A stretch of DNA of 47,350 nt, from positions 1 through 47,350 of the IMG/VR virus record IMGVR_UViG_3300020390_000006; one strand, written 5' to 3'. The stretch is from a virus. A program made the translations under genes and the position numbers. The notes beneath the pieces were generated by a model. The model saw only the letters and a list, made by a program, of their open reading frames with translations. It searched no databases and was not told where the DNA came from. Numbering within the stretch: position 1 is the first letter of the stretch; every line of letters starts with the position of its first letter. This document shows, piece by piece, positions 5,320-47,350 of this stretch.

Positions 5320-5369
5320 AGTAAGTAGGTGAATAGTAGTTAACTTGTTAACGATAATACGGAGTATGT

Positions 5370-5558
5370 ATGTTCAATCTAATTAAAGGATTAGTTACTA
5401 AGAAGTTAGTGAAAGCAGTAGTACGTACAGTAAGTAAGGGTAATCCTTATGCACTAGCTGCTGTAGAATTGTACAGTTTAGTAGATATCCTGGTAGATCG
5501 AGAGAAGGAAGGTAAGATCAAGACTGGGATTAAGCAGGATAAGCGTAAGAAGAAATAA
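5370..5558 (+). CDS. Small basic protein (62 aa), first rightward gene
   Basis: ATG at 5370 has GGAG about 7 nt upstream. The protein begins MFNLIKGLVTKKLVKAVV, an amphipathic hydrophobic-basic helix, and ends in a Lys/Arg tail (KQDKRKKK). Such a profile fits membrane association or nucleic-acid binding. No family recognised. It opens the structural arm. Confidence 0.75.
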   Translation: MFNLIKGLVTKKLVKAVVRTVSKGNPYALAAVELYSLVDILVDREKEGKIKTGIKQDKRKKK

Positions 5559-5582
5559 AACTGATACATGGAGAACTATCTG

Positions 5583-14876: not shown

Positions 14877-15875
14877 ATGTCCGTAGGTAACACTCGGAGT
14901 AATACCCCCGCGATTCGTCGTGCTGAAGTATACTCCACTCTGATCCTCGATGAGATCAAAGACGGCTTCCTGCCGGAAGGCCTGCATCGCGACGTAACCG
15001 ATTTCGGTGATGGTGACACTCTGTTCATCCCCACTTTCGGTGAAGTTGTACTGCGTGAGCTGGAAGAAGGTCAGGATACCCCGATTGATTCCATCGATAC
15101 CGGTCGTATTTCCCTGACCATCACCAAACATGAAGGTGCTGGTGCAGCTCTGACCGACGAAATGCAAGAAGATTCTTACCTGGCTAGCGAATTCGATGCG
15201 ATGATCGTACCGAAAATGCTGCGCGCCATCAAAGAATCTTATGAAACCGATCTGCTTTCCCAGCAATCTAAGCAGACCGCAGCCGATGTGAATGCTATCA
15301 ATAGCTATGCACACCGTTTCTGCGCATCTGGTGGTTCTGGTGCCCGCACCATGACTATCGATGACATCATCTATCTGAAGCTCGCCTTCGATAAAGCCAA
15401 CCTTCCTGACGAAGGTCGTATCCTGATCGTTGACCCGATTGTTGAGGCTACTATTAACAGCCTGACTAACATCGTTAACGTATCTGATAACCCGCGCTTT
15501 GAAGGTATGGTAGAGACTGGCTTTGCCAAGAACATGAAGTTCATTAAGAACATCTTTGGCTTCGACATCTGGTGCAGCAACCGTCTGCCGCGTTTGACCG
15601 CACAAGAAACTCTTGACACTACTGCTACTGGCCTGGTCCAGGCTCCGAGCGGTAACGACAACGCTGAAATCGGCGACATCGTTAACCAAGCTTGGTGTGT
15701 AGCTGACGATACCACTTGCCCGATCATGGGTGCATGGCGTCGTATGCCCACCGTTGCCGGTGAGCGTCAAGAATCCAAACGTCGTGACGTGTTCTACGCC
15801 ACTGCACGTTGGGGTTTCGGCCTGCAGCGTCCGCAGTCTATCGCTTCTATTGCTACTAGCTCTACCCAATATTAA
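14877..15875 (+). CDS. Major capsid protein (332 aa)
   Basis: HK97-fold shell protein judged by position, length (T7 gp10A is 345) and pattern: N-terminal arm with IRRAEVYSTLILDEIKDGF, then FGDGDTLFIPTFGE, ITKHEGAGAALTDEMQEDSY and C-terminal RQESKRRDVFYATARWGFG. Codon use is clearly biased (CTG, CGT, ACC preferred), as expected for the most abundant protein, and unlike the A/T-ending codons of the fibre block. Confidence 0.92.
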   Translation: MSVGNTRSNTPAIRRAEVYSTLILDEIKDGFLPEGLHRDVTDFGDGDTLFIPTFGEVVLRELEEGQDTPIDSIDTGRISLTITKHEGAGAALTDEMQEDSYLASEFDAMIVPKMLRAIKESYETDLLSQQSKQTAADVNAINSYAHRFCASGGSGARTMTIDDIIYLKLAFDKANLPDEGRILIVDPIVEATINSLTNIVNVSDNPRFEGMVETGFAKNMKFIKNIFGFDIWCSNRLPRLTAQETLDTTATGLVQAPSGNDNAEIGDIVNQAWCVADDTTCPIMGAWRRMPTVAGERQESKRRDVFYATARWGFGLQRPQSIASIATSSTQY

Positions 15876-17987: not shown

Positions 17988-20318
17988 ATGCCCCGCGCAT
18001 CTTTAGATAAAAATTATTTTCAACAGACTACGGGTAAGATTACAGAGGCGAGTCCTCTTAATTTCCCGGAAGGCTCGCTTCTTGACGCCTCCAATGTTGA
18101 GATCGACTTTACCGGTACGTTGAAACGTAGATTGGGTATTCAGTTTGAAGATAGCTTTACTCTGGATGCGCTGTCTAACAACCCTAATGATGATCTCGAT
18201 CCTAGCTTTGCAGACACCTACATCTGGGAAAACCCTAAGCGAGCTAATGGTAACTCCATTCTCGTATGTGTATTCGTAGACACTCGTGAGAGTGACGGTA
18301 TCACTCGAGTACACTTAGCCTTCTATGACCTGAACAAGCGTCCTATCAGTGCCAATCGTATTGATGTTATAACTATTGAGCAAGAAGTAATCGATTACAC
18401 TCCTCGTGTACAATTGGTAGAAGCCAAGGGTTTCTTGTTCGTGGCTACAGGTATTGGCGATCCTATCTATATAGACTATTTCCCAGGAGAGTCTCTTGGA
18501 AATATCTTCCAGATAAACGAGATTGAGTTCTTCCTTCGGGATACTATTGGTGCTAATGCCAATGGTTTCTCCCGATCTACGTCCCTTCCATCTGATCGAC
18601 TGTATGATCTAATTAACCAAGGTTGGCCTTACGATAAAGTTCCGTGGATTGACGATACTGCGGCTACAGGCGTAGACGGCTTCAGGTTTCCTTGGTATAA
18701 CTTCGAATACTGGTATGGGAGATATCCTTCGTCTAATGATCTGTATAATACATACATGATCAACGGGGTGATGTCTCGTACAGCTATCGAGTCCTCTCAA
18801 CCTAGTTCAGGTACCTCAGCTAAAGGTAGTTTCGTTATACCTTTGCGTAGAGCTTTTACCCCTGATGATACTAGTATGAGATATACAGATCGAGTAGTAG
18901 GTCTGGTAAATAATTATGCATTTACTGGTGGTTCGGTGGACGATATTGATCAAGGGCCTAGCGCTATCGAGTTTTTCCAAGGCCATGTATGCTTTGCAGG
19001 TGCCCTGTCTCGTAAGACTTCCTTACGTAATGCTATTCTAGTATCTCAATCACTGACATCTGTTGAGAAAGCTGGGGCTATTCACGCTGTCAACGATCCT
19101 TCTTCAGATATTGACAGCTCACCGCTTGATATCGATGGCGGTGTTATCCGATTGGAGGGTGTAGACGAGATTATTAGCCTTAAAGTGGTAGGTAACAGCC
19201 TTATAGTCTTCTGTTCTAACGGTATATGGTCGGTGTCGGGTCCGCTTGAAGGTCTATTCACGGTCAATGAAGTCAATATTACTAAGATTTCAGATGAAGG
19301 TGTTGACTCTCCAGGCTCAATTGTAGAACTACAAAGCTCTATCATGTTCTGGGGACGCTCAGGTATCTTTGCATTGAGTCCCCAACAAGCCTCCTCTATC
19401 CCCCAGGTTACAGATCTGACTGAGTCTACTATTCAGGAAGACTATAATAAGCTTAATAACTTCCAGAAAGCTTATTGTAAGGGTGTATCAGACCCTAAAG
19501 CACGTAAAGTGTACTGGATGTACAATAATAGCATTACTTCAGATGAAGATAGGTTCTATAATCACGATACTATATTGATCTTTGATGCTAGATCTCAAGG
19601 TTTCTACTATTACAACATAGAAAACTCTGACCAAGGCCCCTATTTGATGAGTGCTTTTGTATCAGATTCTCTTTCTCAGTCAGTAGAGCTAGAAAATGTA
19701 GTAGTCGGGCAAGATGTAGTGCAGGTAGGGTCCGAAGATGTAACTATTAATAGGACTATCAGCGAAGCCCAGGTAAGTAATGACCTTTATTTTTGGGGAC
19801 TAGCCTACAATGATCCTGAAGATGAGAGATTGAGTGCAGATTTCTTTGCTCAGTTCCTTAATGAAGGGTTTGAGGACTGGTCTACTTCTCCAGTAGGTGG
19901 TGCACAAGACTACACCTCTTATTTAGAGACTGGCCATGAGATTGTAGGCGACACAATGCGTAATAAGCAGGCTACCTATGTATTCTGCTACTTCAATCGT
20001 ACTGAAGAAGAGTTTGTAGACAATGGTCAAGGTGGATTGGAGTTCGATCGTCCCTCTAGTTGCTATATGCAGACTAAATGGGACTGGACAGACAGCGGTA
20101 CAGCCAACAGATGGACCGCACCGGCCCAAGTATACCGGTTTAGGCGGAATTATATCCCAGCTCTCGGGCCGTTCAACTATGATTTCGATGTTATCGAGAC
20201 TAAGAACAAGGTTCGTGGCAAGGGTAAGTCTCTCAGGGTAAGATTCGAGTCTGAATCTGGCAAAGATTTTCAATTGTTAGGTTGGGCGACAAGTTATACA
20301 GCAGGGCAGACACCATGA
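17988..20318 (+). CDS. Tail tubular protein B (gp12-like nozzle, 776 aa)
   Basis: Begins MPRASLDKNYFQQTTGKITEA then NFPEGSLLDASNVEID and GTLKRRLGIQFED, the hallmark start of T7 gp12-type nozzle proteins. A long beta-propeller-like middle includes VVGNSLIVFCSNGIWSVSGP and PGSIVELQSSIMFWGRSG, also typical. T7 gp12 is 794 aa. Six copies would form the tail nozzle carrying the fibres. Overlaps the next gene by 4 nt. Confidence 0.92.
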   Translation: MPRASLDKNYFQQTTGKITEASPLNFPEGSLLDASNVEIDFTGTLKRRLGIQFEDSFTLDALSNNPNDDLDPSFADTYIWENPKRANGNSILVCVFVDTRESDGITRVHLAFYDLNKRPISANRIDVITIEQEVIDYTPRVQLVEAKGFLFVATGIGDPIYIDYFPGESLGNIFQINEIEFFLRDTIGANANGFSRSTSLPSDRLYDLINQGWPYDKVPWIDDTAATGVDGFRFPWYNFEYWYGRYPSSNDLYNTYMINGVMSRTAIESSQPSSGTSAKGSFVIPLRRAFTPDDTSMRYTDRVVGLVNNYAFTGGSVDDIDQGPSAIEFFQGHVCFAGALSRKTSLRNAILVSQSLTSVEKAGAIHAVNDPSSDIDSSPLDIDGGVIRLEGVDEIISLKVVGNSLIVFCSNGIWSVSGPLEGLFTVNEVNITKISDEGVDSPGSIVELQSSIMFWGRSGIFALSPQQASSIPQVTDLTESTIQEDYNKLNNFQKAYCKGVSDPKARKVYWMYNNSITSDEDRFYNHDTILIFDARSQGFYYYNIENSDQGPYLMSAFVSDSLSQSVELENVVVGQDVVQVGSEDVTINRTISEAQVSNDLYFWGLAYNDPEDERLSADFFAQFLNEGFEDWSTSPVGGAQDYTSYLETGHEIVGDTMRNKQATYVFCYFNRTEEEFVDNGQGGLEFDRPSSCYMQTKWDWTDSGTANRWTAPAQVYRFRRNYIPALGPFNYDFDVIETKNKVRGKGKSLRVRFESESGKDFQLLGWATSYTAGQTP

Positions 20319-26357: not shown

Positions 26358-28437
26358 AGTTTTGCTAGGCGATATCGGGGTAGCCAGCCCTAACCCTAGA
26401 GTTGCAGTCGTTCAATCAGATCGCTCTGATGCTGCTGCTATCGAGGCTGCTGGTAACTTAGGGGCTGACATAGCTTCTGGTGTTCAGCGTGGCCGTACTA
26501 AGCAAGCAGCTAGAGATATTGGTGATGCTCTCAACGTAGCACATGGTGTTAAGCGAGCTGGTGGTAGCTTTGATCCTGATACAGGTGAGATAGATCTCCC
26601 AGCAGCTCGTACAGCTAGAGAGAATGAACGTAATGCTGAGATACAGCGACAAGCTGCCGGTGTTAAGAAGCGTTCAGAGGATGCTTTCCGCAAGATTAAC
26701 CGTATGGTTGCTCAGCGTGGAGGTAGTCTCCAAGCTGGTGGTGCTATGGCGCGTACCTTGGTAGAGCGTGAGATGCGTAACATCCTCAGTCTTACCCCAG
26801 GGTTTGAATCTGAAGTACGTCAAGCTGCATCCACAGTGATGGGTTTCGATCCTACTGGTGGTACTATGGAAGCCCTGTTTAACTATCGTGATCCTACAGT
26901 AGAAGACGCCTTTGATCCATTCACTGACACTGAGGTTGGTAAGAATGCGCGTGAACTGCAGATGGCAGGTATGGGTGTAGGTGTTGAACTTACAGACCAA
27001 GAAGCCCTCCGTATGGCAGGGGATGACTACCTCGAAGCACAACAGGTAGAGCAACTCCAGCGTCGTGCTGAGATGGGTACATTCTCTACTGGTGAGTTGT
27101 TGAATGACATCTATGCTAAGGATAATAACAGCCTTAAAGGCTTCATGAAGAAGCATGCTGAAATGGTGCTTACTTCTGGCGGTACTACAGGCTATCAGAC
27201 TGAAGACTTCCTGGCTTCTAGGGATCAGTGGGTTAACGATAAAACCCAACAGGCTATTAGTATCCTTCGTTCAGGGGACAACATAGTTTCTCAAGAAGAT
27301 GAACAACGTATCCGTCAGCACTATACCAATATCTCTGAGCCTTGGGCTCGCATGGTATCAGCTGGTAACTGGAACACCATCTTCGCAGATAAGAAGACTA
27401 CTATTGAGAATCTAATGTTTAAGAAAGGTATCGAGGTAGCTCCCGAACTAATGACCTGGTCTACAGCTTTCGGCGAGGGCGTAACCACCAAGCTTCTCGA
27501 TGCTATGGATAGTGTAACTAATGAAGCCCAGTATAGCTTGCTCCAGAAAAGGTTTCCTACCCTCACAGCAGCATTCGGTGATAGCCGTCAAGAGTTTGCT
27601 AATGGGTTTGGCAATGCTTATCGTCAGATTCTCAATGGCCAGCGTGTTAATGTTACTGGCAACCCTGAGACGGACAAGATGCTCGAGGGTGTAGTAGTAG
27701 ACGAAGCCACTAACACTAGCAACCCTGCTGAGACTAACGACATCTTCAAGCAGCTGGGTGAGAAGACACCTAAGCTGGCATTGAGTGCCCTGGCTAAGAA
27801 ACCTCAGAAGTTCTACGAACTAGACCAGGCTGGTAAGACACAGTTCCGTGAGATTGCTACTACCAACATGATGAACTTGGTAGATCAGCTGGCCTCCGTA
27901 TCTAATCAGACCGGCCGTCCTCTCGAGATCCATGGTGCAGCTGCCATGACGGATGAAGCTCAGCGGGATGCTATCCAGCGTAGGCAAGAAGGTGGCATAC
28001 ACGGGTTTACTACTGGCCGTAGATTTAGCGGGGAGACTCGTCTTGCATTCACTAATGCTTCAGGTGCTGAGACTACGTTCCCTGAAGCTAATGTCCAAGC
28101 CCTCAACGATGTATACAAACGACTCTTCGGTAAGCTGGGCAAGGAACTTACTCAAGGCCGCATGGCTAATGACCAAGACACTTACCTGAATGAAGTGAAA
28201 GATCTGGTTAACTATCGTTCTGCTATGATGCAGCGTGATAACCTAGTAGATCAAATCGCTATAGCAGCTGAAGGTTTGAATGGTAACGTCTACGATGAGA
28301 GCCGTATCCAGTCAGAGCAGGAACGTATTGATCGAATGACTAAGCAGGTTGAGACTATTGAAGCAAGGATGGTTCCCCTCCGTCGCAGCACTGAGGCTCT
28401 CCGTAAAGGATTGAACATAAGCTTCGATAATGAATAA
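26347..28437 (+). CDS. Internal ejection protein, gp15-like (696 aa)
   Basis: Start at 26347 (MANEVLLGDIGVASPNPR) with GAGG upstream, overlapping the giant protein by 11 nt. The N-terminal ~60 residues resemble T7 gp15-type starts with AIEAAGNLGADIASGVQRGR. The rest is helical, without Cys clusters, with a charged C-terminal coiled coil (RIDRMTKQVETIEARMVPLRR). T7 gp15 is 747 aa and builds the periplasmic tube. Gene order of the two big proteins is inverted relative to T7 15-16. Confidence 0.8.
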   Translation: MANEVLLGDIGVASPNPRVAVVQSDRSDAAAIEAAGNLGADIASGVQRGRTKQAARDIGDALNVAHGVKRAGGSFDPDTGEIDLPAARTARENERNAEIQRQAAGVKKRSEDAFRKINRMVAQRGGSLQAGGAMARTLVEREMRNILSLTPGFESEVRQAASTVMGFDPTGGTMEALFNYRDPTVEDAFDPFTDTEVGKNARELQMAGMGVGVELTDQEALRMAGDDYLEAQQVEQLQRRAEMGTFSTGELLNDIYAKDNNSLKGFMKKHAEMVLTSGGTTGYQTEDFLASRDQWVNDKTQQAISILRSGDNIVSQEDEQRIRQHYTNISEPWARMVSAGNWNTIFADKKTTIENLMFKKGIEVAPELMTWSTAFGEGVTTKLLDAMDSVTNEAQYSLLQKRFPTLTAAFGDSRQEFANGFGNAYRQILNGQRVNVTGNPETDKMLEGVVVDEATNTSNPAETNDIFKQLGEKTPKLALSALAKKPQKFYELDQAGKTQFREIATTNMMNLVDQLASVSNQTGRPLEIHGAAAMTDEAQRDAIQRRQEGGIHGFTTGRRFSGETRLAFTNASGAETTFPEANVQALNDVYKRLFGKLGKELTQGRMANDQDTYLNEVKDLVNYRSAMMQRDNLVDQIAIAAEGLNGNVYDESRIQSEQERIDRMTKQVETIEARMVPLRRSTEALRKGLNISFDNE

Positions 28438-28451
28438 GAATAAGATGGTTT

Positions 28452-28700
28452 ATGACTATAGGACAAGAAGTCGTGGACAACGAGGCTAGGGTGGACATAG
28501 CATTGCTACATCAAAAGATTGAACACCTATCTGACAACCTCACTCGACATATGGAGTTTGAGGAGAAGCAGAGGGACAAGTTCGAGGACGTGATCAACGG
28601 CTTGGGTCAACGGGTTAGTCACTTGAGCAAGATTGTGTGGCTAGCAATGGGTGCCCTCGGTGGTATACAGATGCTGGAGTACATGCCCTTCACTACTTAA
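28452..28700 (+). CDS. XhlA-like small membrane protein, possible holin accessory (82 aa)
   Basis: Begins MTIGQEVVDNEARVDI, then a coiled coil (HQKIEHLSDNLTRHMEFEEK) to about residue 58 and one hydrophobic segment at about 60-78 (IVWLAMGALGGIQMLEYM). This layout matches XhlA/DUF-type hemolysin-like proteins that work with holins. It closes the + arm just before the terminator and faces the endolysin gene on the other strand. Whether it makes the lethal hole itself is uncertain. Confidence 0.65.
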   Translation: MTIGQEVVDNEARVDIALLHQKIEHLSDNLTRHMEFEEKQRDKFEDVINGLGQRVSHLSKIVWLAMGALGGIQMLEYMPFTT

Positions 28701-32998: not shown

Positions 32999-33246
32999 CA
33001 GTCTACATTCTCCAATTCATCTACATAATCCTCAATCTCATGGGCTTCTAGTCCACTGATCAAGAGACCTATGTATCGTTGTTTCCAATGATTAACTTTC
33101 TGCTCTTCAAGCATCAGTTCAGTCTCGAGATGGATTACTTTACTGCGCAATTCTTTGAGTTCTTCTTCATCCAAAATCTCTTGAAGACTTTTAAATTTAA
33201 GTTTGTTTTTCTCTACTCTGTTTGTTTCAAAATAAGGTAAGAACAT
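32998..33246 (-). CDS. Coiled-coil protein downstream of polymerase (82 aa)
   Basis: Start at 33246 overlaps the polymerase stop (TGATG). MFLPYFETNRVEKNK is followed by a long charged coiled coil (EILDEEELKELRSKVIHLET) and a short acidic end. No Cys. Could be a polymerase accessory by position, but no family is recognised. Confidence 0.7.
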   Translation of the reverse strand: MFLPYFETNRVEKNKLKFKSLQEILDEEELKELRSKVIHLETELMLEEQKVNHWKQRYIGLLISGLEAHEIEDYVDELENVD

Positions 33247-35069
33247 CAATGTGTCTCCGCCCAGTTTTTACCTACCTTAACGTCAGCTTCAATAGGTAAG
33301 TTCATATTAAAATGTCTCGTCACTATGACAGTAGCTTCGTGTACAAGTTCCGTAAATCTTTCAACATCTTTAGGTTTGACATCCCACTGTGCCTCGTCAT
33401 GCATGTCAATTACTTTCCAAGCATCTAGTTTGTTCTCTTTAACGAGGTCGTAGAGTACCTGCCCAACCTTCTTGTGTACTACTGCGCCGTTTCCTTGGAG
33501 GAGAGTGTTAAGGGCTTTGTTTCTTTGAAGGCGGCCATCACTTCCTCTTCTAATACGGAGGAGTCCTCCGTCCAATGCTCGTAGGAAACCTCTACCAGCA
33601 GATCGTTTAACACCTCGAATGAGTTTTTCAAGCGCTGGATTTGCTCTAAGGAATTCCCTACGTAATCTTCTGCCTGCATCAGCTGTTCCTCCGACAATAG
33701 ATCCAAGCTTTGCATCTCCAGCGCCATAGTTGAATGCGTAGATAAAAGTTTTAGCATGGTCTCTTGTTGGTAGTCCAGCAAGTTCTTGGTTAAGGACATG
33801 GATGTCTCCATTAAGTAGGGTGTCTATGTAGTTTTGATCGCCCATGAAGTGGGCTAGGAGGCGTAGCTCAATACCTTTAAGGTCATAGCCTACCATCTTA
33901 CGGCCAGGGCTAGCTGTGAATAGAGCTCGCATCTTGTTACCATAGAATGCTAGCTCATTGCCTTCTTTATCGTAGCCTGCCTTAGGTACATTCACTACTC
34001 TGCGGTGGGTGAAGCGTCTAGTTGGTGTACCACATGGGTTACCGTCAGCTTCAATGCGGCAGTCAGGTCTTACATTCTTTACCCAACCTTGTATCTGGGA
34101 TAGTCTGTGAGACCAGAGCTTACGATCCTTGATCATCTTACCTAGACCAGTGTCAAGACCATCACCATCTGCAAACTCTAGCTTGGGTGAGGTACGTTCA
34201 CCAGTTTCTTTATTGTAGTTGTAAGCTACTGGCTTCCAGCCTAGTTTGAATAAGAGTTCTTTGACCTGTACATCTGAGGATAAGTTCATTCTTTCATAGA
34301 ATATTCTAGTGAACTCACCTGCTATCATACCCAGTGGTAGGTCTTGCTCATACCAATCAATAATATTCTTACGATACTGACCATCAGCCTTATAAATCTT
34401 ATCGATTACTACCCCATATGGCCTAGCTTTGTAGGGTGTAAGGTGTTCTAACTCTACATCTAGCTTAGCAATACGTCCTGAGAGCTCCTGTATGGCTTTC
34501 TCAGCAGCTTTAAGATCGAAGTAGACCCCTCGCCTAGCCTGCTCACTAACGATCTCCTGCGTGCGTTTCTCGAGCTCACAGGCCTCACTCCAATCATGGC
34601 CCTTCATCTCGTCAAGCAAGTATTCATATGTCTTATGGTTAATCTCTACGTCTTGCTGGCAACGATGAAGCATCTCGTCTGAGTACTGGGTCCAGTCCTC
34701 GTGCTTAGGTTTAGGTACTCCGAACCTTAAGCCCCACGCTTCAAGAGAATGCGGCCCTGCTCTTGGAGAGAGTCCGACAGGTGCTGGTCTATCTGGATAG
34801 CTGAGTCTGCTAAGAACAAGGGTATCGACCAAAGAAGTATGAGAGGCGAGATCAATACCATAAAGCTTATTGATAATATAACGATCAAAATCAAGCTGAT
34901 TATGGCAGACAACCCTATCATAGTCGCAAAGGTAACCAATGCCGTCTCTAATATTATTAGGCCCAAAGCTTTTAACAACGCCAGTGTCTTGGTCTTTAAC
35001 CACGATGCACCAGATTTTAGTGGCTTCATGTAAGCCATTAGCTTCTGTATCATAGATTGCTGTCCTCAT
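33246..35069 (-). CDS. DNA polymerase, family A (607 aa)
   Basis: T7 gp5-type replicase. Proofreading domain: Asp7 and Glu9 in YDTEANG, Asp62 in NQLDFDR, Asp140 in CQQDVEIN. Polymerase: motif A VGYDLKGIELR (Asp396), motif B RDHAKTFIYAFNYG (436-449), motif C MHDEAQ (His557-Asp558-Glu559). At 607 aa it is about 100 shorter than T7 gp5, mainly before motif A, so the thioredoxin-binding loop may be reduced or absent (inference). Confidence 0.95.
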   Translation of the reverse strand: MRTAIYDTEANGLHEATKIWCIVVKDQDTGVVKSFGPNNIRDGIGYLCDYDRVVCHNQLDFDRYIINKLYGIDLASHTSLVDTLVLSRLSYPDRPAPVGLSPRAGPHSLEAWGLRFGVPKPKHEDWTQYSDEMLHRCQQDVEINHKTYEYLLDEMKGHDWSEACELEKRTQEIVSEQARRGVYFDLKAAEKAIQELSGRIAKLDVELEHLTPYKARPYGVVIDKIYKADGQYRKNIIDWYEQDLPLGMIAGEFTRIFYERMNLSSDVQVKELLFKLGWKPVAYNYNKETGERTSPKLEFADGDGLDTGLGKMIKDRKLWSHRLSQIQGWVKNVRPDCRIEADGNPCGTPTRRFTHRRVVNVPKAGYDKEGNELAFYGNKMRALFTASPGRKMVGYDLKGIELRLLAHFMGDQNYIDTLLNGDIHVLNQELAGLPTRDHAKTFIYAFNYGAGDAKLGSIVGGTADAGRRLRREFLRANPALEKLIRGVKRSAGRGFLRALDGGLLRIRRGSDGRLQRNKALNTLLQGNGAVVHKKVGQVLYDLVKENKLDAWKVIDMHDEAQWDVKPKDVERFTELVHEATVIVTRHFNMNLPIEADVKVGKNWAETH

Positions 35070-35547: not shown

Positions 35548-35637
35548 TCATTGCCAAGGCAAGCACTGGGAGCAGATGAATCCTCGGATTGTACCTACAC
35601 CTTCAGCGCTTTCATCGTTGCAAATAATACAAATCAT
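35548..35637 (-). CDS. Tiny Gin-like zinc protein (29 aa)
   Basis: ATG overlaps the helicase stop (ATGA). MICIICNDESAEGVGTIRG then FICSQC: two CxxC pairs 17-18 residues apart with a GFIC turn. This spacing is like the Gin family of small anti-sigma zinc proteins of spore formers (known family), though 29 residues is about half their length, so the likeness may be convergent. Confidence 0.6.
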   Translation of the reverse strand: MICIICNDESAEGVGTIRGFICSQCLPWQ

Positions 35638-37376
35638 TTTGTGTTACTCCATCCAAATGGTTCTGCAACCCTGGACATTCGACCAGTAGTATCTGAAAAG
35701 TTCAAATAATCTGCATCGCCTGTGCGACCTGTGAAGCGACACTTGCCCACAGTAATCAGGCTAGTGTTAGCACAGTATTCATCGGGGTGTTGTTGGTTAC
35801 GCGTGAGGAATAGGACGTCCCATGACAGCTGCTTGATAGAACCAGAGCCACGGAGATCATCGAGGGAAGGCTTAGCCCCCTCTTCAAAGGGACGGTCAAA
35901 ACCTGAGGATTTCTTGAGGTGTACTACGAGGAAGATGATTAAGCCAAACTCCTTAGCCATCTTAGCTAGGCGGGTCATGATGGTGTCGATACGTTCTCGC
36001 TCACCACCTTCAGAGGCGTACTCGGATACAATGATGGAGAGGTGGTCGAGGTAGATTACCTTGTGGCCTGTAGCTGCTAGATACCTAAGCTTGGTAAACA
36101 AGTTTTCATCATCCATGCCACCGAAGTGATCGTACATAGACCACCGGCCATCAGAGAATAGATAATCAAATGCTTGTCGCTCTTCATCTTCAGTTACCTG
36201 TACATCGGGGAGTTGTATTCGCTTGTTGAGGTGCAAGGCCATGAGGCCTGCCATTGAATCACTGATGGATTCTTCGAGGGATATGTCTCCCTGCTTCCAG
36301 TCAGTGGTAGTGTGATAGTGGTACTTGAGCTCACGTAGGAACTGCGTCTTACCGCAGCCAGAGCCTGAGGCTACAGTGATTACACTGCCAGGCCGTACTC
36401 CATAGGTCTTCTTGTTAAGCTCAGTCCATTCACGGGGGTAGGGGTAGGATACGATGTTGGAAGATTCTTTGTACATCTCCCATGCATCTGCAACATTCAC
36501 AATGTTGTCAGGTTGATACAGCTTAGGCTTCATGAGCAACCACTTAAGGTCCTCACTCTTGCCAGCCATAAGCATTTCATTGGGATCTTTGTACGGAAGG
36601 TCTACGTAGTATGACTTGCCCGGTACACACTGACACGCGGCCTTGAGGCCAGCTGCGCCAGCATCATCCTGATCAAATACAAATACTACTTTCTCGTAGC
36701 TATTAACGAACTCGGAGTTTTCGGAGAGGGCTTTAGCTGCAGAAGCTGCGCCATGTGGCACGCTTACTACAGCAGGGGAGTAGTCTTGAAGGGAGGAATG
36801 TGTGACGAGGGCTTGGTATACGGAGAGGGCATCTAGTTCTCCCTCTGTTACGAAGAGGGTCTTTCCAGCTCGGGCTTCAGACTGCCCGAAGAGATCACAT
36901 TGAGTGGTTGGCCCAAGGGTTGAGAATGATTTTGACTGAACGTCCCGTACCTTAAAGCGTACAACACGTCCTTTGGAAGTGAGTGGGTAGAAGTGCTGGG
37001 TTGGTTCGCCTGATGTCTCGTCGACATGTACGCGTACTCCAAAATGATTTACAGTATCGAATGTTAACCCACGCTCAGGAAGAGCACGGGGCATGTAGGA
37101 CAGAACGTCCTGTACGGTGGGCATATTCATATGATTCTTCTTATTAGGTGTACTGGGAACACTTGATCCCTTACCTGGTTGAAGGCCAGGGGTTGAATCT
37201 CCTTCAGCATGTCGGGATACATTTTTAGTTAGCGGTGTTGACTCGGTGTAACTACAACGGTTACAGTACGCACCGCCATCCTCGAACAAGATCAGGTGGT
37301 TCCCAGTACGGTCTCGGCCATGCTTCCTGCATTGAGGGCAGGGTGCATCGCCTATGATCTTACTCCTGTTACGCAT
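35634..37376 (-). CDS. Primase-helicase (T7 gp4-like, 580 aa)
   Basis: N-terminal zinc domain CPQC (13-16) and CNRC (38-41), TOPRIM with FVTEGELDALS (Glu178) and FVFDQDDAG (Asp235/237), then a RecA-fold helicase with Walker A SGSGCGKT (337-344) and Walker B KVIYLDHLSII. It unwinds DNA and makes primers at the fork with the polymerase. GGGGAG precedes the ATG. T7 gp4A is 566 aa. Confidence 0.95.
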   Translation of the reverse strand: MRNRSKIIGDAPCPQCRKHGRDRTGNHLILFEDGGAYCNRCSYTESTPLTKNVSRHAEGDSTPGLQPGKGSSVPSTPNKKNHMNMPTVQDVLSYMPRALPERGLTFDTVNHFGVRVHVDETSGEPTQHFYPLTSKGRVVRFKVRDVQSKSFSTLGPTTQCDLFGQSEARAGKTLFVTEGELDALSVYQALVTHSSLQDYSPAVVSVPHGAASAAKALSENSEFVNSYEKVVFVFDQDDAGAAGLKAACQCVPGKSYYVDLPYKDPNEMLMAGKSEDLKWLLMKPKLYQPDNIVNVADAWEMYKESSNIVSYPYPREWTELNKKTYGVRPGSVITVASGSGCGKTQFLRELKYHYHTTTDWKQGDISLEESISDSMAGLMALHLNKRIQLPDVQVTEDEERQAFDYLFSDGRWSMYDHFGGMDDENLFTKLRYLAATGHKVIYLDHLSIIVSEYASEGGERERIDTIMTRLAKMAKEFGLIIFLVVHLKKSSGFDRPFEEGAKPSLDDLRGSGSIKQLSWDVLFLTRNQQHPDEYCANTSLITVGKCRFTGRTGDADYLNFSDTTGRMSRVAEPFGWSNTK

Positions 37377-37419
37377 AGGAGCTCCCCTTTACTAGCATTT
37401 CTGTTCCAAGGCTGCTGTC

Positions 37420-37506
37420 TTACCCGAGCAGCCAGACTGTCCAGATGATTACTGGTGTCATGACTGCGATTAGACACTGGATTAGCAGATTAGTTCGCAC
37501 TGCCAT
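37420..37506 (-). CDS. Tiny membrane peptide (28 aa)
   Basis: ATG overlaps the stop of gene 37506-37688 (TAATG) with AAGGGG just upstream. MAVRTNLLIQCLIAVMTPVI followed by IWTVWLLG is almost entirely one membrane helix. Peptides like this can act on host membrane enzymes; no homologue recognised. Confidence 0.55.
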   Translation of the reverse strand: MAVRTNLLIQCLIAVMTPVIIWTVWLLG

Positions 37507-37688
37507 TACCCCTTATAGAGAACGCGCAAGTAGGGGACGATCTGATACACGTTACCTTCAGGGTCTTTCAGCTCAACGTACGACAGCTCCATCTCGTCGA
37601 TCTCGCCGGCATGTACCTTGGCAATGTTCTCCACCATCCGTGTCACTTCAATGAATCTAGGATTAAATTGGCTCACGGGCATACCCAT
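37506..37688 (-). CDS. Small protein (60 aa)
   Basis: Start at 37688 (MGMPVSQFNPRFIEVTRM) after GGAGGTAGTC. Helix followed by a small beta domain (MELSYVELKDPEGNVYQIVP). No Cys, no membrane span. First gene of a transcription unit that leads to the helicase, with a long hairpin in its leader. Confidence 0.7.
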   Translation of the reverse strand: MGMPVSQFNPRFIEVTRMVENIAKVHAGEIDEMELSYVELKDPEGNVYQIVPYLRVLYKG

Positions 37689-41200: not shown

Positions 41201-42031
41201 TTAGCAGTCCTCCTTACCGAAGAAGGCATGGTCCCCGATGACAGCCTTGAGGACTAGGCCCTCGTCGCTGTTACCTTGGAGCGCTTGCCTTGACCACTTC
41301 ACATCCCACATAATATCCTTAACAAGGTAGTGGGTGGCACCGCACGTCATGTCACGGTGATGGTCATCGAAGTACATTTCCTTCGCCAGTGCAGTCACCT
41401 GTTCCAAGTCCTCGTTGTATTGAGGTACCCGGTCGGGGTTCATGTTAGCGAAGCTGAATTGCTTGTTATCAAAGATCGTTTCACACATGGTAGTGTTGCC
41501 ACGATACTCACCTTCGGTACGATTCTTGATGACATCGTACACCCAGCGGATACCAAGCTCGGGTTCACCACCAGCCTCGAAGAAGAGAGCCCGGATTACA
41601 CAGTCAAGCTGCTCCGCATCGAAGGCGGCATTACGCTTGACCCCCTGCTTCACCGTATCAGCATTGTGCTCGAACACCTGCTCAAGGGTTACCGCAGTTT
41701 CAGTAGGGATCTTCTGTGCAGACTCACCTGACGAGCCCATGGGGATGTCGCCACCATCATCCAAGAATTCTTTCTTCTTCTTGGACAACCATGACTTAAG
41801 CTCATCAATGGTGCCGGGGTCTTCCAAGTCATCAGGCTTGGAGGGAACCACGTCCTGCTTTTCCACCGGCTGAGGCTTGTCGACAGTATCAACCGCCGCA
41901 ACCTCGGTGTCACCTTCAGCAGCGTAGGCCTTATCGTACACGGCCAGGCCAACAATCAAAGCGAGTGCTGCCAGGATAGTGTAGAGTTGCCAACGGCGAA
42001 GGATCACCGGCTTCTTGTCTTCATCATGCAT
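41201..42031 (-). CDS. Membrane-anchored SleB-like cell-wall hydrolase (276 aa)
   Basis: One membrane span at about 16-32 (LYTILAALALIVGLAVY), a long acidic/Pro linker to ~140, then a Hydrolase_2/SleB-like catalytic domain: VIRALFFEAGGEPELGIRWV with the expected Glu152, VIKNRTEG and CETIFDNKQFSFAN. SleB-type enzymes are lytic transglycosylases cutting peptidoglycan. The anchor would expose the domain to the periplasm without a holin. Early-arm location is unusual for a lysis enzyme. Confidence 0.82.
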   Translation of the reverse strand: MHDEDKKPVILRRWQLYTILAALALIVGLAVYDKAYAAEGDTEVAAVDTVDKPQPVEKQDVVPSKPDDLEDPGTIDELKSWLSKKKKEFLDDGGDIPMGSSGESAQKIPTETAVTLEQVFEHNADTVKQGVKRNAAFDAEQLDCVIRALFFEAGGEPELGIRWVYDVIKNRTEGEYRGNTTMCETIFDNKQFSFANMNPDRVPQYNEDLEQVTALAKEMYFDDHHRDMTCGATHYLVKDIMWDVKWSRQALQGNSDEGLVLKAVIGDHAFFGKEDC

Positions 42032-42430
42032 TTAAGTTTAACCTCCTTGGTGCTTCAATTAACACCGGTCAGGGTACTAACCCTTCAAGTGCAGTCGGTA
42101 ACCGCTGAAGAATCAATACCCTGTGCAGTGTTAACTGCCACTGTCTCGCTTCGCTGTTTTCCCTGGCGTGCAAGCAGGCCGCCACATGCACATTGGGTTT
42201 GAGTAATGGCCTGCCTGCTTGCTCATCCACTGGGTTTGGATGGCGGTACTTATCCAGCTCCGCTTGACGGAGTCTGCTACTATGCATGGAACAGCATTGG
42301 GTTTGCTGCTGTGCATAGCTGCGCTCCTCCCGGACTAACCTGCTCTCGCTCCAGGCTCACCACCTGGTACGCTTTTTAGGGAGCATACCCATTTAGCTTG
42401 GCCGGGGACACTTCATACTGCTTACCAAAA
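42032..42430. other. 399-bp structured leader of the hydrolase gene
   Basis: No gene supported. Three hairpins share loop NTGGGTT (42188-42204, 42224-42242, 42292-42308); the last is enclosed by CTATGCA/TGCATAG. CTCCG-CTTGA-CGGAG lies between them at about 42258-42272, and CAAGCAGGC/GCCTGCCTGCTTG surrounds the first. The density of local pairing suggests a folded leader RNA controlling the downstream hydrolase or its transcription. Confidence 0.6.
42188..42308. repeat. Cluster of three NTGGGTT-loop hairpins
   Basis: Members: GCACA-TTGGGTT-TGAGT (42188-42204, one mismatch and one G-T), CATCCA-CTGGGTT-TGGATG (42224-42242) and CAGCA-TTGGGTT-TGCTG (42292-42308). Stems differ in sequence while loops agree, the mark of a recognised loop rather than a copied segment. 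Confidence 0.65.
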
Positions 42431-43021
42431 TTACTGCTGGTTGTTCTGTTGCTTCTGTTGCTGCTGATTATTCCCCTTATTTTTCCCTTGCTGTTGCTGT
42501 TGCTGGTTACGGGAGTTGTCATGGAAGATAAAGTCTTTCGTCAGCCTGCCTGCGTCTTTATCGAGACGAAAGCCAGGCGGAAGAGGAGCTTCTTCCAGTG
42601 TGAAGTAAGTGACCGTGCGCTTACGCTTCAGCTCCTTACGTTCACCCTCCACTTGCTTGATGACCTTGATGCTGGGAATACCTACCTTGCGGAACCAGTA
42701 TCGCCAGTCACGAGTACCGCCATGATCGACAAGATGATTGCGGTAGTCTTGGTCAACCAGCTTAACCTTGTTAGTCAGATGCTTGTTCTCATCATCCAAC
42801 TCTTTGCCAAGCTTCTTGAGTTCGGCTTGCAGCTTACGCTGCTTACGTTCCAGATAGTTCTTCCGATTACTCAGATTACTAACAGGAAAGAAGAAGCCGA
42901 GGATCAAGCGCTCGTACATGTAGCCTACATTCTCGGTATAAAGAACCCGATGGACAGGCCACACAAACCAGGGAATAACCGCCAGCCCTATCATGCTCAG
43001 TAGAGCTAGCATCTCGTACAT
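42431..43021 (-). CDS. Membrane and coiled-coil protein with poly-Gln tail (196 aa)
   Basis: Two hydrophobic segments near the start (LALLSMIGLAVIPWFVWPV; LILGFFFPVSNL), then a Lys/Glu coiled coil at about 53-90 (RKQRKLQAELKKLGKELDDE), a beta region (YWFRKVGIPSIKVIK; RTVTYFTLEEAPLPPGF) and a C-terminal tail of Gln/Asn/Lys. GGAGT precedes the start. Unknown; the Gln tail probably is disordered. Confidence 0.75.
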   Translation of the reverse strand: MYEMLALLSMIGLAVIPWFVWPVHRVLYTENVGYMYERLILGFFFPVSNLSNRKNYLERKQRKLQAELKKLGKELDDENKHLTNKVKLVDQDYRNHLVDHGGTRDWRYWFRKVGIPSIKVIKQVEGERKELKRKRTVTYFTLEEAPLPPGFRLDKDAGRLTKDFIFHDNSRNQQQQQQGKNKGNNQQQQKQQNNQQ

Positions 43022-43202
43022 AACATGTACTCCTTGATGTTGCGAATGTTAACCCAGCTAAAGGGGTAGACACTGGGCTTTCCTTACCGAAGAAGACAGT
43101 CGGTTAACTGCACTGGCTCTTCTCTTTTTAACGTGGAGTAGTACCAGCCCCCTTCGCCACGGCCCCAGTTGCACTTCACTCGGGGCTAAGCTTTCTTGCT
43201 TC

Positions 43203-43296
43203 ACATAGATAGGGGATAGGTGGAAAAGCCCGAGGAGATTGGACGTCCAACGGGAAGGGCCACGAGCAGCCGACCTATGCTATGTGCAAACGACGA
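43203..43296 (-). ncRNA. Possible structured RNA
   Basis: CACATAG and ATAGGT near the left end pair with ACCTAT and CTATGTG at the right end, closing a ~94-nt region. Inside are a TTGGACGTCCAA self-complementary segment and GCCC/GGGC pairing. Base pairing is the only evidence for an RNA. Confidence 0.35.
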
Positions 43297-43481
43297 TACT
43301 AATTGCCAGTGTATACGCTGGTCTTGAGTGTAACAATTCCACCACCACCGCAGGCTAGTGCTGCACTTTCTCTCCGTGTACTGAGGTTGGGTTCGGGCTT
43401 TTCGTCGGTGCCTAGGATGTGCCTCTCCCACCTCCCCAACTGATCACCAATGTACCCAGGAGAAGGAGTCTTGCCCTGTTC

Positions 43482-43544
43482 ACTACCGTGTAGGAGTTGA
43501 ACCTACTGCTCACTGCTTTTCACACAGCTGCCACCTCACACTAG
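43482..43544 (-). tRNA. tRNA-Phe(GAA)-like element without D arm
   Basis: T arm GTAGG-TTCAACT-CCTAC is perfect. The anticodon arm GCTGT-GTGAAAA-GCAGT has five pairs (two G-T) and the loop carries T33, GAA and A37, as in tRNA-Phe. Acceptor CTAGTGT pairs with ACGGTAG at 6 of 7 positions. Only nine bases (GAGGTGGCA) separate acceptor and anticodon stem, so no D arm can form. Could be a degenerate copy or a truncated-type tRNA. Confidence 0.45.
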
Positions 43545-43646
43545 TTACTAACGCTGCAAGATACCCCTGTTTACCATTGCAGATAAACATTATGACTATC
43601 GGTTGGATCTGATTCTCAACCTATTGAGCAATGCATAGACAGTGCA

Positions 43647-45950
43647 TCACGCCTTGATGGGGACATCCAATCGATCCTTACCCAAGTCCTCTACCTTAGA
43701 GAGGTCGAGAGTCGAACTCGAGATACGATTGGTGGAGTCAATACCATCAGTGTCACCGAGCAAGATTAATCCCTCCTTGCTACGCGGTATCACTACCTTC
43801 TTGCCGAGGTAAATACCAGATTCAGAGAACTCATCCTCGGGTACATCCTGGGCTACGGCATTGATCGCCATAGAGATAGGGTCGTGGTCGTAGTTGCGAT
43901 TGACTGGCTTACCCGTTAGATTTTCCAGCCATACCACATCGTACGAGTCATCATGAGCAACCTTATCTCGGAGAATTTGCTGGGTGATTTTCTTAACCAC
44001 AGCCTGATCAACCTTGTGGTTGAATTCCTCCAGGTCTAGTGGTGCAACGTCCTTTGCTCCGTAGTCACGGTAAAGAACAGGCTCATTCATCCATGACATG
44101 AGACTACGGCCCCAGCTGCGCAGTTTGCCAACGGCCTTACCGATGACCGATTGCCGCTTAGGTAATACAATCTGTTCATGTACAGGTACACTGTCCAGAA
44201 AGGAGAGTGTATGCTGTAGACGAGCAGCGTACTGTGAGCCTGATCGCTCGACCACACCATGTTCTTCAGGGTCGGCGTTATCCATCAGCCACCGTTGGTA
44301 TTGGATGAGGTCATCACCCCGTACCCAGTAGCTCAACCACTTTGATGTGTCGTCTCGATCAACATGAGAGACACTGCCCCTGCTGTTCTGTTGGGGAACA
44401 GGGGTAGACCGTGGGTACAACATGGTTCGACGTGTGGTATGTTCAGGTACCAAGCGCCGATCCATACGAGCGTGAGGTAGCCAGCAGCTTTGATGCACCC
44501 GGCGATACTCACGTTCCCACTTCATGATCTCCAATTGGCAAGGTTCACCCTGATCGTAGCTAGCATTGAGAGGGCAGGTACCCTGAAACTGAAGATGTTT
44601 GTGGTCTTGCTCATACCATAGACGTAAGAGTTCACCGTACGTCCAGGTATTAAACTCGCTGCCGATGTCAGAGGGGTAGAACAACTGATCGACTGCATAG
44701 TCAGAGAGCATACTGTCTTCCTCGATAAGGACATTATCAGAGGGAGAGAAGTAGCACGAGGCTTGCTCCATGGTATACAGGAAATCAATCTCTTTCATAC
44801 GAGCAGTACGAGTGTATTCATCAGGGCTTTCCGGATCGTGCCAGTCTACCCAGACTTCCTCACCCTTGGTGTAAGCGTACGAACAAGGAGACAAACGATA
44901 GTATCCGTGATCGTAGAGCTCCATCGCCGCTGTTATGGCGATGTTTTGCAGGGCAAGCATTCGGTTTGATGCCATGTCGCTAGCATCGGACGGGCTGACT
45001 CCACTATTGAAAGTCTCTGCTACCCAGGGTTCATCGTCGATGTCCCAAGGAGGAAGCCAGTCTTGCTCGGCGTCATTCAGAGTGGTGATGTAGTCAGCGA
45101 ACTCACCATAGCGGCTGCTGCTCCACGGAATAAACCGTTTGCTGCAGCTTGGATAGGCTGTTAACTTTAGCCCACCCTCAGTGGCCACTGCACTGATACG
45201 TTCGTCGTCCAACACAGCTTCTTCATGTTGATAGGGCCGGTCGGAGGACTGGTCTTTCGTAGCCAACCACTTACGCATGTGGGTCTCGACAGGCGAGGGA
45301 GGTAAGCTAGGCTGTTGGTCCTGGTTTGCAGCTTTCCGTTGGCGAAGGGCGGACCAGCCCCAGCCTTTGGTCCTTGTGTTCAGCTCGGGATCGGGGCGTG
45401 TGATCTGTTCATCCCCGAAGCTACCGCCGCGTGACTGCTGTGAGTTAGCCGTCCGGCTGATCGCTTCAGCCCGAGCATCTTTCAGTGCCGTCTCGAAATC
45501 GACGACGTTGTTCCAGTTCACCCGACACACAGGGCCGGGCCGTTGAGGGGGGCAGGTCAGACTAACACCGTCATGCTTAGGGTCAGGCATAAAGCGCTTA
45601 CCCATAGGCGTGAAGATGCGTGCGTTACAACAAAGATTAGCCAGGGCCTGCATCATAGGGATGCCTTCCCAAGTATCCTTGCCGTAATGGTAGTTCCATG
45701 TAGGCAACCAGTTCTTACTGCCCCCACCACCGCCGTTGCTACCTGAAGAGGCGGCATAAGGTGGGTCAAAGGGTGGCTCATCACGATAGCTACGGCCATG
45801 AGCGTACACGGGCAGCTGTTTCACTGCCTGTTGCATGCTGATGACAGGCGCTATAGCTTGGGCCAACGGTTTCTTGTTACCATTGGGTTTGGTAACTCGC
45901 TTTACCCCACCACCAGGCGGCGGACGCTGCTTCTTAGCAAGCATCGCCAT
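43647..45950 (-). CDS. Large orphan early protein (767 aa)
   Basis: Strong site TGAAGGAGTAAC before ATG, partly inside a hairpin. Basic/Pro N terminus (MAMLAKKQRPPPGGGVKR), a Gly linker (SSGSNGGGGGSKNW, ~68-81), then a Trp/Tyr-rich soluble body (GSKNWLPTWNYHYGKDTW; WLPPWDIDDEPWVAETF; FNTWTYGELLRLWYEQDHKH) and a C-terminal part with VIGKAVGKLRSWGRSLMSWM. I find no polymerase, nuclease or helicase motif and do not recognise the family. It is by far the largest gene of the early arm. Confidence 0.85.
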   Translation of the reverse strand: MAMLAKKQRPPPGGGVKRVTKPNGNKKPLAQAIAPVISMQQAVKQLPVYAHGRSYRDEPPFDPPYAASSGSNGGGGGSKNWLPTWNYHYGKDTWEGIPMMQALANLCCNARIFTPMGKRFMPDPKHDGVSLTCPPQRPGPVCRVNWNNVVDFETALKDARAEAISRTANSQQSRGGSFGDEQITRPDPELNTRTKGWGWSALRQRKAANQDQQPSLPPSPVETHMRKWLATKDQSSDRPYQHEEAVLDDERISAVATEGGLKLTAYPSCSKRFIPWSSSRYGEFADYITTLNDAEQDWLPPWDIDDEPWVAETFNSGVSPSDASDMASNRMLALQNIAITAAMELYDHGYYRLSPCSYAYTKGEEVWVDWHDPESPDEYTRTARMKEIDFLYTMEQASCYFSPSDNVLIEEDSMLSDYAVDQLFYPSDIGSEFNTWTYGELLRLWYEQDHKHLQFQGTCPLNASYDQGEPCQLEIMKWEREYRRVHQSCWLPHARMDRRLVPEHTTRRTMLYPRSTPVPQQNSRGSVSHVDRDDTSKWLSYWVRGDDLIQYQRWLMDNADPEEHGVVERSGSQYAARLQHTLSFLDSVPVHEQIVLPKRQSVIGKAVGKLRSWGRSLMSWMNEPVLYRDYGAKDVAPLDLEEFNHKVDQAVVKKITQQILRDKVAHDDSYDVVWLENLTGKPVNRNYDHDPISMAINAVAQDVPEDEFSESGIYLGKKVVIPRSKEGLILLGDTDGIDSTNRISSSTLDLSKVEDLGKDRLDVPIKA
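45876..45896 (-). promoter_or_regulatory. NTGGGTT-loop hairpin inside the orphan gene start
   Basis: GTTACCA-TTGGGTT-TGGTAAC: seven perfect pairs, 7-nt loop, within codons ~19-25 of the 767-aa gene. Same loop as six other hairpins at 42.2-46.7 kb. Confidence 0.6.
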
Positions 45951-45962
45951 GATGTGTTACTC

Positions 45963-45979
45963 CTTCAGTGGGTTTGAAG
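45963..45979 (-). promoter_or_regulatory. NTGGGTT-loop hairpin covering the ribosome binding site
   Basis: CTTCA-GTGGGTT-TGAAG on the + strand; on the mRNA the 3' arm TGAAG is the first part of the TGAAGGAG site for the 767-aa gene, so folding would hide it. Together with 45876-45896 two like hairpins flank the start codon. Confidence 0.6.
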
Positions 45980-46029
45980 TATTCACTATCACGGCTATTG
46001 CGCGCAGACGCGATCGGTCACTTGTTGCT

Positions 46030-46101
46030 ATTACTAAGCAGGACTCGAACCCGCACCTCTCCCTTCGACTAAGAGGCTCTATCCTATTAAGCTATTAGTA
46101 A
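46030..46101 (-). tRNA. tRNA, anticodon position reads TCG (Arg-like)
   Basis: Full cloverleaf: acceptor TTACTAA/TTAGTAA (7 bp); T8 A9; D arm GCTT/GAGC with loop AATAGGATA; anticodon arm CTCTT/GGGAG (two G-T); T arm GCGGG-TTCGAGT-CCTGC. The loop AGTCGAA puts TCG at 34-36 with A37, but position 33 is G instead of the nearly universal T. No encoded CCA. Strong structure, odd loop. Confidence 0.75.
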
Positions 46102-46103
46102 TA

Positions 46104-46135
46104 ACAATGTGTCTGCCAGTTCCACCACTCCCGAC
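46104..46135 (-). pseudogene. tRNA-Leu 5' half
   Basis: TCGGGAG-TG-GTG, D loop GAACTGGCAGA, CAC, A: exactly the 5' half of a class II tRNA-Leu (three-bp D stem and Leu-type D loop). It runs into tRNA 46030-46101, whose 5' end follows within a few bases, so no Leu anticodon arm or 3' half exists downstream. Confidence 0.55.
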
Positions 46136-46200
46136 ATGGGAGGCAGGACTCGAACCTGCACAAGCGTACACTTGGCTGATGCTGCATCCAAAAGCCTGTG
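46136..46200 (-). pseudogene. Class II tRNA 3' half upstream of the Leu 5' half
   Basis: Variable arm CAAG-TGTACG-CTTG, T, perfect T arm GCAGG-TTCGAGT-CCTGC, then CTCCCAT. No 5' half is found in the normal upstream place. CTCCC is instead complementary to GGGAG of the Leu 5' half five bases downstream, so the two halves lie in permuted order. A GGCT/AGCC stem precedes the variable arm. Left limit approximate. Confidence 0.5.
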
Positions 46201-46536
46201 TAGCATGCGCGAATAGCCGCGCAGCGTATGATGGTACAGATAATCAAGCGTCTATGTTTTAATTGCTTCAGCTCAAGGTCGTAGGTGTTGGTTGTACCTC
46301 GTGCCCGGGCGTTACGCTGATCAGGCCTTCACGCACACGATGACATGGAACAACATACGGTTGGTATAACATCGTGCTACTGCTGTAAGCAATCTTCAGC
46401 CCGGCTGTTAAGCCTGTCTTAGGCTGGTGTTTCAGGTTAGGGTCGTACTCAGGCACCCCATGAGACGGCCTGTAACGCACGCTGAGAGCCTTATCTAGCG
46501 AGCAGTAGGGAGGCCCAGGTGATGGCTGGAAGGCAG

Positions 46537-46553
46537 CTGTAATGGGTTTACAG
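46537..46553. repeat. NTGGGTT-loop hairpin
   Basis: CTGTA-ATGGGTT-TACAG, five perfect pairs and a 7-nt loop. Member of the hairpin family described under findings. Confidence 0.6.
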
Positions 46554-46665
46554 AAGCTTGTAGCCGTATGCATTAGCCTGTTGCTGGGGTTGTTAGGCAG
46601 TAATCTGTTGGGCTGTCCTGTCAACCGACAGCTTAACCAGTATGCCTGGTAGGTAGGAGCTGGTC

Positions 46666-46682
46666 TAACAGTGGGTTAGTTA
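46666..46682. repeat. NTGGGTT-loop hairpin, variant
   Basis: TAAC and GTTA pair around A-GTGGGTT-A; the closing A-T of other family members is here A-A. Weakest member together with 42188-42204. Confidence 0.4.
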
Positions 46683-46724
46683 TTGCACACCACTCGTACC
46701 AATTACCTGACTAAAGCAGACTGA

Positions 46725-47257: not shown

Positions 47258-47350
47258 TTGATTCGACCATGCATATATATATATATATATATATTGCTTA
47301 TGGCGTACAACAATGCAACTGCTCCTCTCCGAGAATCGCTGTCGATGTAC
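47258..47350. repeat. Terminal direct repeat, right copy
   Basis: Same sequence as 1-91 with AT run of 22 nt (47273-47294) instead of 20. See left copy. Confidence 0.9.

Follow-up and report, generated by a model that had tools for sequence, protein, structure and literature searches.

Here, we analyse a 47.35-kb podovirus record (IMGVR_UViG_3300020390_000006, positions 1 to 47,350; "the window" below means this whole stretch) and describe a family of short hairpins in its early region, which on balance we read as RNA operators acting in cis within early mRNAs across a Zobellviridae-like clade of podoviruses. In each, a 5- to 7-bp stem of free sequence displays a 9-nt loop that ends in CANT and has a genome-specific 5' half. 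Several copies per genome are placed in the 5' leaders and spacers of early genes, where they stand singly or form arms of larger RNA structures; some of them overlap or adjoin a ribosome-binding site. A putative phage-encoded RNA-binding protein would read the loop and, by stabilising or opening the leaders, would switch the translation of early genes. The most economical reading is that translation initiation is at least one target.

Hairpins with five or more Watson-Crick pairs around a 7-nt loop number 78 in the window, and five of them share the loop core TGGGTT; the runner-up core is seen twice. Across 600 shuffled windows (order-1 and order-2 Markov) no core recurred more than three times and TGGGTT at most once. 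The original prediction, which had named such a shuffle count as a check, described seven hairpins with this loop, five clear and two weaker, and all seven sites are present (loop starts on the plus strand at 42193, 42230, 42297, 45883, 45968, 46542, and 46671). The member at 42193 is degenerate, with about two good pairs, and is enclosed by a longer outer helix. The A-T pair that was said to close the loop is seen in other members and is not universal, since the 46671 hairpin has A.A there (taac AGTGGGTTA gtta); because the hairpins of a related genome (G007, below) also carry A.A at the closing position, we take the 9-nt loop as the conserved unit and 46671 as a true member. A further match in the late region, at 27602, is probably due to chance. 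The early genes lie on the minus strand, and the transcribed element is therefore the reverse complement of the sequence first described, that is, a variable 5- to 7-bp stem with the 9-nt loop AAACCCANT; the strand originally viewed as functional was the wrong one.

The relatives of the window are Zobellviridae such as ICP2, and its nearest annotated record is phage GX1-k141_326647 (GX1; PQ867844, here L057), with 53% identity in the primase-helicase. We observe the same architecture with a different loop in GX1, where it reads AGNGCCATT and variants in mRNA sense, and in four IMG/VR genomes: G007 (IMGVR_3300028610_000087; TGWGCCANT), G022 (IMGVR_3300037587_000064; TGWRNCANT, nine copies), G006 (IMGVR_3300028844_004001; CAAYCCAAT), and G004 (IMGVR_3300030105_002900; AACNCCAAT). 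A further genome, G001, perhaps carries the element, its members being uncertain. Since GX1, G007, and G022 are fairly close kin, these genomes amount to about four to five independent lineages. Loop positions 6, 7, and 9 are C, A, and T in all 35 aligned members, an invariance that is partly built in because members beyond the first genomes were sought by a CANT-type pattern, which did not prescribe the genome-specific 5' half. Across the alignment 95.4% of cells are paired and all five pairs vary on both sides; the members were chosen as hairpins, so the orthologous cases provide the real test of covariation. Only loop columns are conserved, with no conserved base outside the loop and no common flanking motif. 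When a covariance model was trained on the other genomes alone, the hairpins at 45877, 42224, and 42291 (minus strand) took ranks 1, 2, and 3 over both strands of the window, and the remaining three good members came within its top ten. E-values of so short a model are poor (0.14 to 0.39 for the top three), and rank and placement carry the weight.

At orthologous places, a tRNA-like element of GX1, G007, and G022 has an upstream hairpin in which each of the seven pairs shows a compensatory double change in at least one genome. Two hairpins 26 to 27 nt apart are enclosed by an outer helix, which is fully paired within G022 and within GX1 but conserved only in part in the three-sequence fold. 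The expectation that stems would covary around a fixed loop is thus borne out, with relatives keeping the architecture and re-encoding the stems. No comparable family emerged when loops were searched de novo in ICP2, in the Vibrio phages 1.077.O and 1.208.B, and in IMG/VR contigs of greater distance, and the families recovered from 1.208.B and G008 were mainly tRNA T-loops. None of 4227 Rfam models matched the hairpins, only tRNA scoring above the gathering score, and a literature text search on Zobellviridae and hairpins, judged by title and abstract, returned nothing concerning such elements.

The distribution of the element follows transcription. In six genomes (the window, GX1, G007, G006, G004, and G001), perfect five-pair hairpins occur 13 times on the early-mRNA strand and never on the antisense strand of 83 kb of early region, while 100 kb of late region holds 0 and 1 perfect copies on its two strands. 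The confinement to the early arm that was noted at the outset extends over six genomes, all hairpins being located upstream of the primase-helicase gene and on the strand of the early mRNAs. Compared with the window, the G007 contig is a circular permutation, and this leaves the strand argument unaffected. Where a hairpin has one non-Watson-Crick pair, this is G.U in 8 cases and A.C in 2 in mRNA sense, an excess that is suggestive only and favours RNA in that sense over extruded DNA. Mean pair probability is 0.75 in sense and 0.48 in antisense context (Wilcoxon p=0.0017), an advantage that may partly stem from G.U having been permitted in the choice of members. Because of the G.U excess, the better folding in sense, and the structure kept at orthologous places despite sequence change, we favour RNA in mRNA sense as the form in which the element acts.

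Several copies lie close to or across a Shine-Dalgarno (SD) sequence. Upstream of a small early gene in GX1, G007, and G022, two hairpins form arms of a four-way junction at whose base UCCUU pairs with the SD sequence GAGGA; the two outer pairs differ in all three genomes and are compensatory. In the window, the 3' strand of the hairpin at 45962-45980 partly holds the SD sequence AAGGAG (45960-45965) of a gene encoding 767 aa, and in the predicted fold of this start the AUG is fully paired with upstream sequence and the SD 37% unpaired. Another hairpin lies about 22 codons inside the same gene. A cell-wall hydrolase-like gene has three hairpins at 156 to 260 nt upstream of its start, and the tRNA at 46029-46102 has two on its upstream side. 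In GX1, six of seven copies are outside annotated genes, even though non-coding sequence makes up only about 39% of the early region by annotation count. The hairpins that overlap or adjoin SD sequences suggest that the virus controls protein production through them, and of the functions originally put forward, translational operators in RNA are the best supported, through stem covariation, folding in sense, and the SD-pairing junction.

Some observations weigh against this reading. The majority of copies are away from ribosome-binding sites: the only ones that come within about 45 nt of a start codon are 45962-45980, L057 40231 and 40248, G022 5816 (with its G007 counterpart), and G004 14830, and the rest lie 47 to 430 nt upstream or within genes. 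The G022 leader folded as a single sequence does not hide the SD, so that the SD-pairing junction rests on comparative evidence. The gap between G.U and A.C is small, and narrows to 6 versus 2 among loop-confirmed members. No reader protein was identified: the CsrA gene is absent from all these phages (controls matched in E. coli, B. subtilis, and T. maritima; a host may still supply CsrA), and the single early protein conserved in six genomes gave no informative fold match. This 60-aa protein (a helix and two strands; mean predicted local distance difference test score [pLDDT], 83) was considered as the reader and set aside, having no meaningful fold match.

Loops vary from one genome to another and little inside a genome, as would be expected if each genome had its own reader. 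More tentatively, we propose that these phages may possess an undescribed post-transcriptional regulon in which a factor reads a loop code, made of a genome-specific 5' half and the invariant CANT, in about three to nine early-mRNA hairpins per genome, and in which loop and reader have co-diversified across the clade to give orthogonal RNA-reader pairs.

Of the other functions that the hairpins could serve, processive antitermination or RNA processing at nut/boxB-like sites would have a phage protein bind the loop in nascent early RNA and modify RNA polymerase or direct processing, so that a long early region with large structured spacers is read through. The many copies scattered along early transcripts, in spacers and sometimes in genes, and untied to start codons, agree with it, as do the terminator-like sites of the early region (13 found, 8.3 expected), but no boxA-like or other conserved flank accompanies the hairpins and the conserved SD-pairing junction is left unexplained. 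We regard it as unlikely for the family as a whole, and possible for copies far from start codons. RNA-RNA docking or titration, in which a small RNA or tRNA of phage or host would pair with the loops, or the loops would absorb a host RNA-binding protein, appears less likely still. A fixed loop on free stems would also suit a kissing loop, and several unusual tRNA-like elements occur in the early region; yet the 5' loop half varies by genome and no matching partner was found, the complement TGGGTT occurs at 12 sites on the window minus strand, about chance for a 6-mer, and the loop lacks the GGA of CsrA sites. Kissing with tRNA anticodons was dropped: the loop complement (NUGGNNN) is similar to an anticodon loop, yet it would have the wrong position 37. 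Mimicry of an anticodon arm was also rejected, as it fits the untranscribed strand only.

Hairpin promoters in extruded DNA, as proposed by analogy with phage N4, would require a virion RNA polymerase to recognise a TGG loop on the template strand. Every copy does present TGG (TGN in G022) on the early-gene template strand in the early region, and sigma-70-like sites in the GX1 early region (L057 32000-46150) are fewer than in shuffles (3 found, 11.1 expected). Against this, the loop measures 7 to 9 nt in every genome and not 3, no base is conserved at start-site distance, copies lie within coding sequence, and wobble pairs and folding in sense favour RNA. No T7/N4-type polymerase was found either: PF00940 matched none of nine records, a weak negative as the control genomes also lacked a match, and no RNA polymerase family appeared among the 18 window proteins scanned. 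We thus consider this option improbable. T7-primase sites were rejected because the required GTC is absent. Lookalikes of so short an element do arise, as the degenerate 42193 hairpin and the late match at 27602 illustrate, but chance or mobile-repeat copying is already refuted by the shuffles and by the model built without the window, and the strand bias and the relatives with re-encoded stems likewise stand against it. Because the stems share no sequence, the hairpins are not copies of one repeat, and we assign this explanation almost no weight. The reading as RNA operators remains the one we prefer.

The positions of all features are collected in Table 1. The 767-aa early protein has no recognisable homologue, an IMG/VR search gave no close relative, and structure prediction yielded no usable model (pLDDT 34). 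A large early open reading frame (ORF) does occupy the equivalent position in relatives, with hairpins upstream or within, and evolves very fast (36 to 38% identity between GX1 and G007/G022), the versions in other genomes being unrecognisable. A scan of genome contigs found no relative near enough for use.

Table 1. Hairpins, genes, and other features in the window and its relatives
Sequence	Feature	Position	Strand	Remarks
Window	Weak/degenerate hairpin, loop AAACCCAAT	42187..42205	-	Outer helix GCAAGCAGGC...GCCTGCTTGC
Window	Hairpin CATCC-AAACCCAGT-GGATG	42224..42242	-	19.2 bits; rank 2, model built without window
Window	Hairpin GCAGC-AAACCCAAT-GCTGT	42291..42309	-	18.6 bits; rank 3, same model; outer helix CTATGCA/TGCATAG
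Window	Hairpin TTACC-AAACCCAAT-GGTAA	45877..45895	-	20.2 bits; rank 1, same model; in 5' end of 767-aa ORF
Window	Hairpin ACTTC-AAACCCACT-GAAGG	45962..45980	-	17.6 bits
Window	Hairpin TCTGT-AAACCCATT-ACAGC	46536..46554	-	16.0 bits
Window	Hairpin ATAAC-TAACCCACT-GTTAG	46665..46683	-	16.3 bits; closing T.T (A.A on + strand)
Window	Early protein, 767 aa, no assigned function	43647..45950	-	Hairpin at ribosome-binding site, another in coding start
Window	Cell-wall hydrolase-like early protein (PF07486)	41201..42031	-	
Window	Terminase	10502-12073	+	Packaging and virion genes on + strand
Window	Portal	12070-13848	+	
Window	Major head protein	14877-15875	+	
Window	Internal virion protein, 1678 aa	21321-26357	+	
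Window	DNA polymerase	33246-35069	-	Replication and early genes on - strand
Window	Primase-helicase	35634-37376	-	
Window	Small genes of no assigned function	from primase-helicase up to 47350	-	
Window	Uncalled T-arm hairpins	39127, 43501, 46154	-	
L057	Uncalled T-arm hairpins	34103, 34519	-	
G004	Uncalled T-arm hairpins	16181, 21287, 21349, 21436	-	
G006	Uncalled T-arm hairpins	20633, 21223	+	
G007	Uncalled T-arm hairpins	25204, 25717	-	
L057	Extended-acceptor tRNA-like element	34040-34275	-	
L225	Extended-acceptor tRNA-like element	5330-5575	-	
L341	Extended-acceptor tRNA-like element	12130-12345	+	
Window	Similar-layout early protein	42431-43021	-	
L057	Similar-layout early protein	36805-37278		
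G007	Similar-layout early protein	28114-28611		
G022	Similar-layout early protein	8728-9222		
G004	Similar-layout early protein	18895-19545		
G001	Similar-layout early protein	36902-37579		

The early-mRNA strand also bears numerous perfect tRNA T-arm hairpins (5 bp, TTCRANN loop) at which ARAGORN calls no tRNA. Some are followed by D-arm-like sequence, in the manner of permuted-tRNA or YrlA-like RNAs, and the Rfam YrlA model matches L057 34445-34547 at 31.8 bits (E=6e-5), below its gathering score. A tRNA-like element conserved in three genomes ends in ...CCCGACCA on a near-perfect extended acceptor helix of about 25 to 28 bp (GGCAGGGCAYT...AGTGTCCTGCY), and ARAGORN assigns an abnormal four-base anticodon (aacg) to the G007 tRNA at L225 11911-11985 (minus strand). 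Early proteins of similar layout share an N-terminal hydrophobic or aromatic stretch, a coiled coil, and a low-complexity tail; blastp joins those of the five relatives mutually and not that of the window, whose tail is Q/N rich. Finally, the window spacer at 43204-43290 has long inverted-repeat ends (CACATAG...CTATGTG) and resembles a structured RNA, and an alternating AT run (TATATATA...) lies at 47273-47294, close to the record end.

If the operator reading is true, a marine/environmental podovirus lineage runs its early genes via a dispersed RNA-hairpin regulon, and not via a single operator or a transcriptional switch. Genome-specific loops combined with a constant CANT would then allow the reader to be traced through co-variation, and would provide new RNA-binding pairs that are orthogonal. 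Zobellviridae-like early regions, usually annotated as hypothetical genes and long gaps, contain conserved structured RNA.

Among known systems, the promoters of the N4 virion RNA polymerase carry a loop of 3 nt, with base conservation that reaches to +1 (PMC4496689). They resemble the hairpins described here in that the stem is unconstrained, the loop bases are fixed, and early genes follow downstream, with the hairpin on the template strand, and differ in loop length, in start-site conservation, in the polymerase, which was not found here, and in the RNA-level signature seen here. The boxB hairpin of lambda nut sites, with its 5-nt loop and boxA partner, is likewise an early-transcript hairpin read by an RNA-binding protein (here putative), whereas the present loops measure 7 to 9 nt and have no boxA-like flank. 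CsrA/Rsm sites are recognised by their loop on variable stems, with several per mRNA and some beside the SD, features that the present hairpins would share, but the loops of the present hairpins (NNNNNCANT) contain no GGA in mRNA sense. The RegA sites of T4 and RB69 are unstructured, rich in A+U, and contain the AUG or lie next to it (PMC3014915), whereas the present elements are hairpins that are often distant from it; as in the RegA regulon, the initiation regions of many early mRNAs could be under the control of a single phage factor. The operators of T4 gp43, a hairpin some 40 nt before the start together with sequence over the ribosome-binding site (PMC3014915), and of the RNA-phage coat proteins are also short mRNA hairpins with a specific loop at or near a phage ribosome-binding site. 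Those operators occur once per genome on a largely fixed stem, whereas the hairpins here number about three to nine per genome, with free stems and a loop that varies between genomes. Translational operators are already known from phages, and what is new is a multi-copy family with free stems and genome-specific loops.
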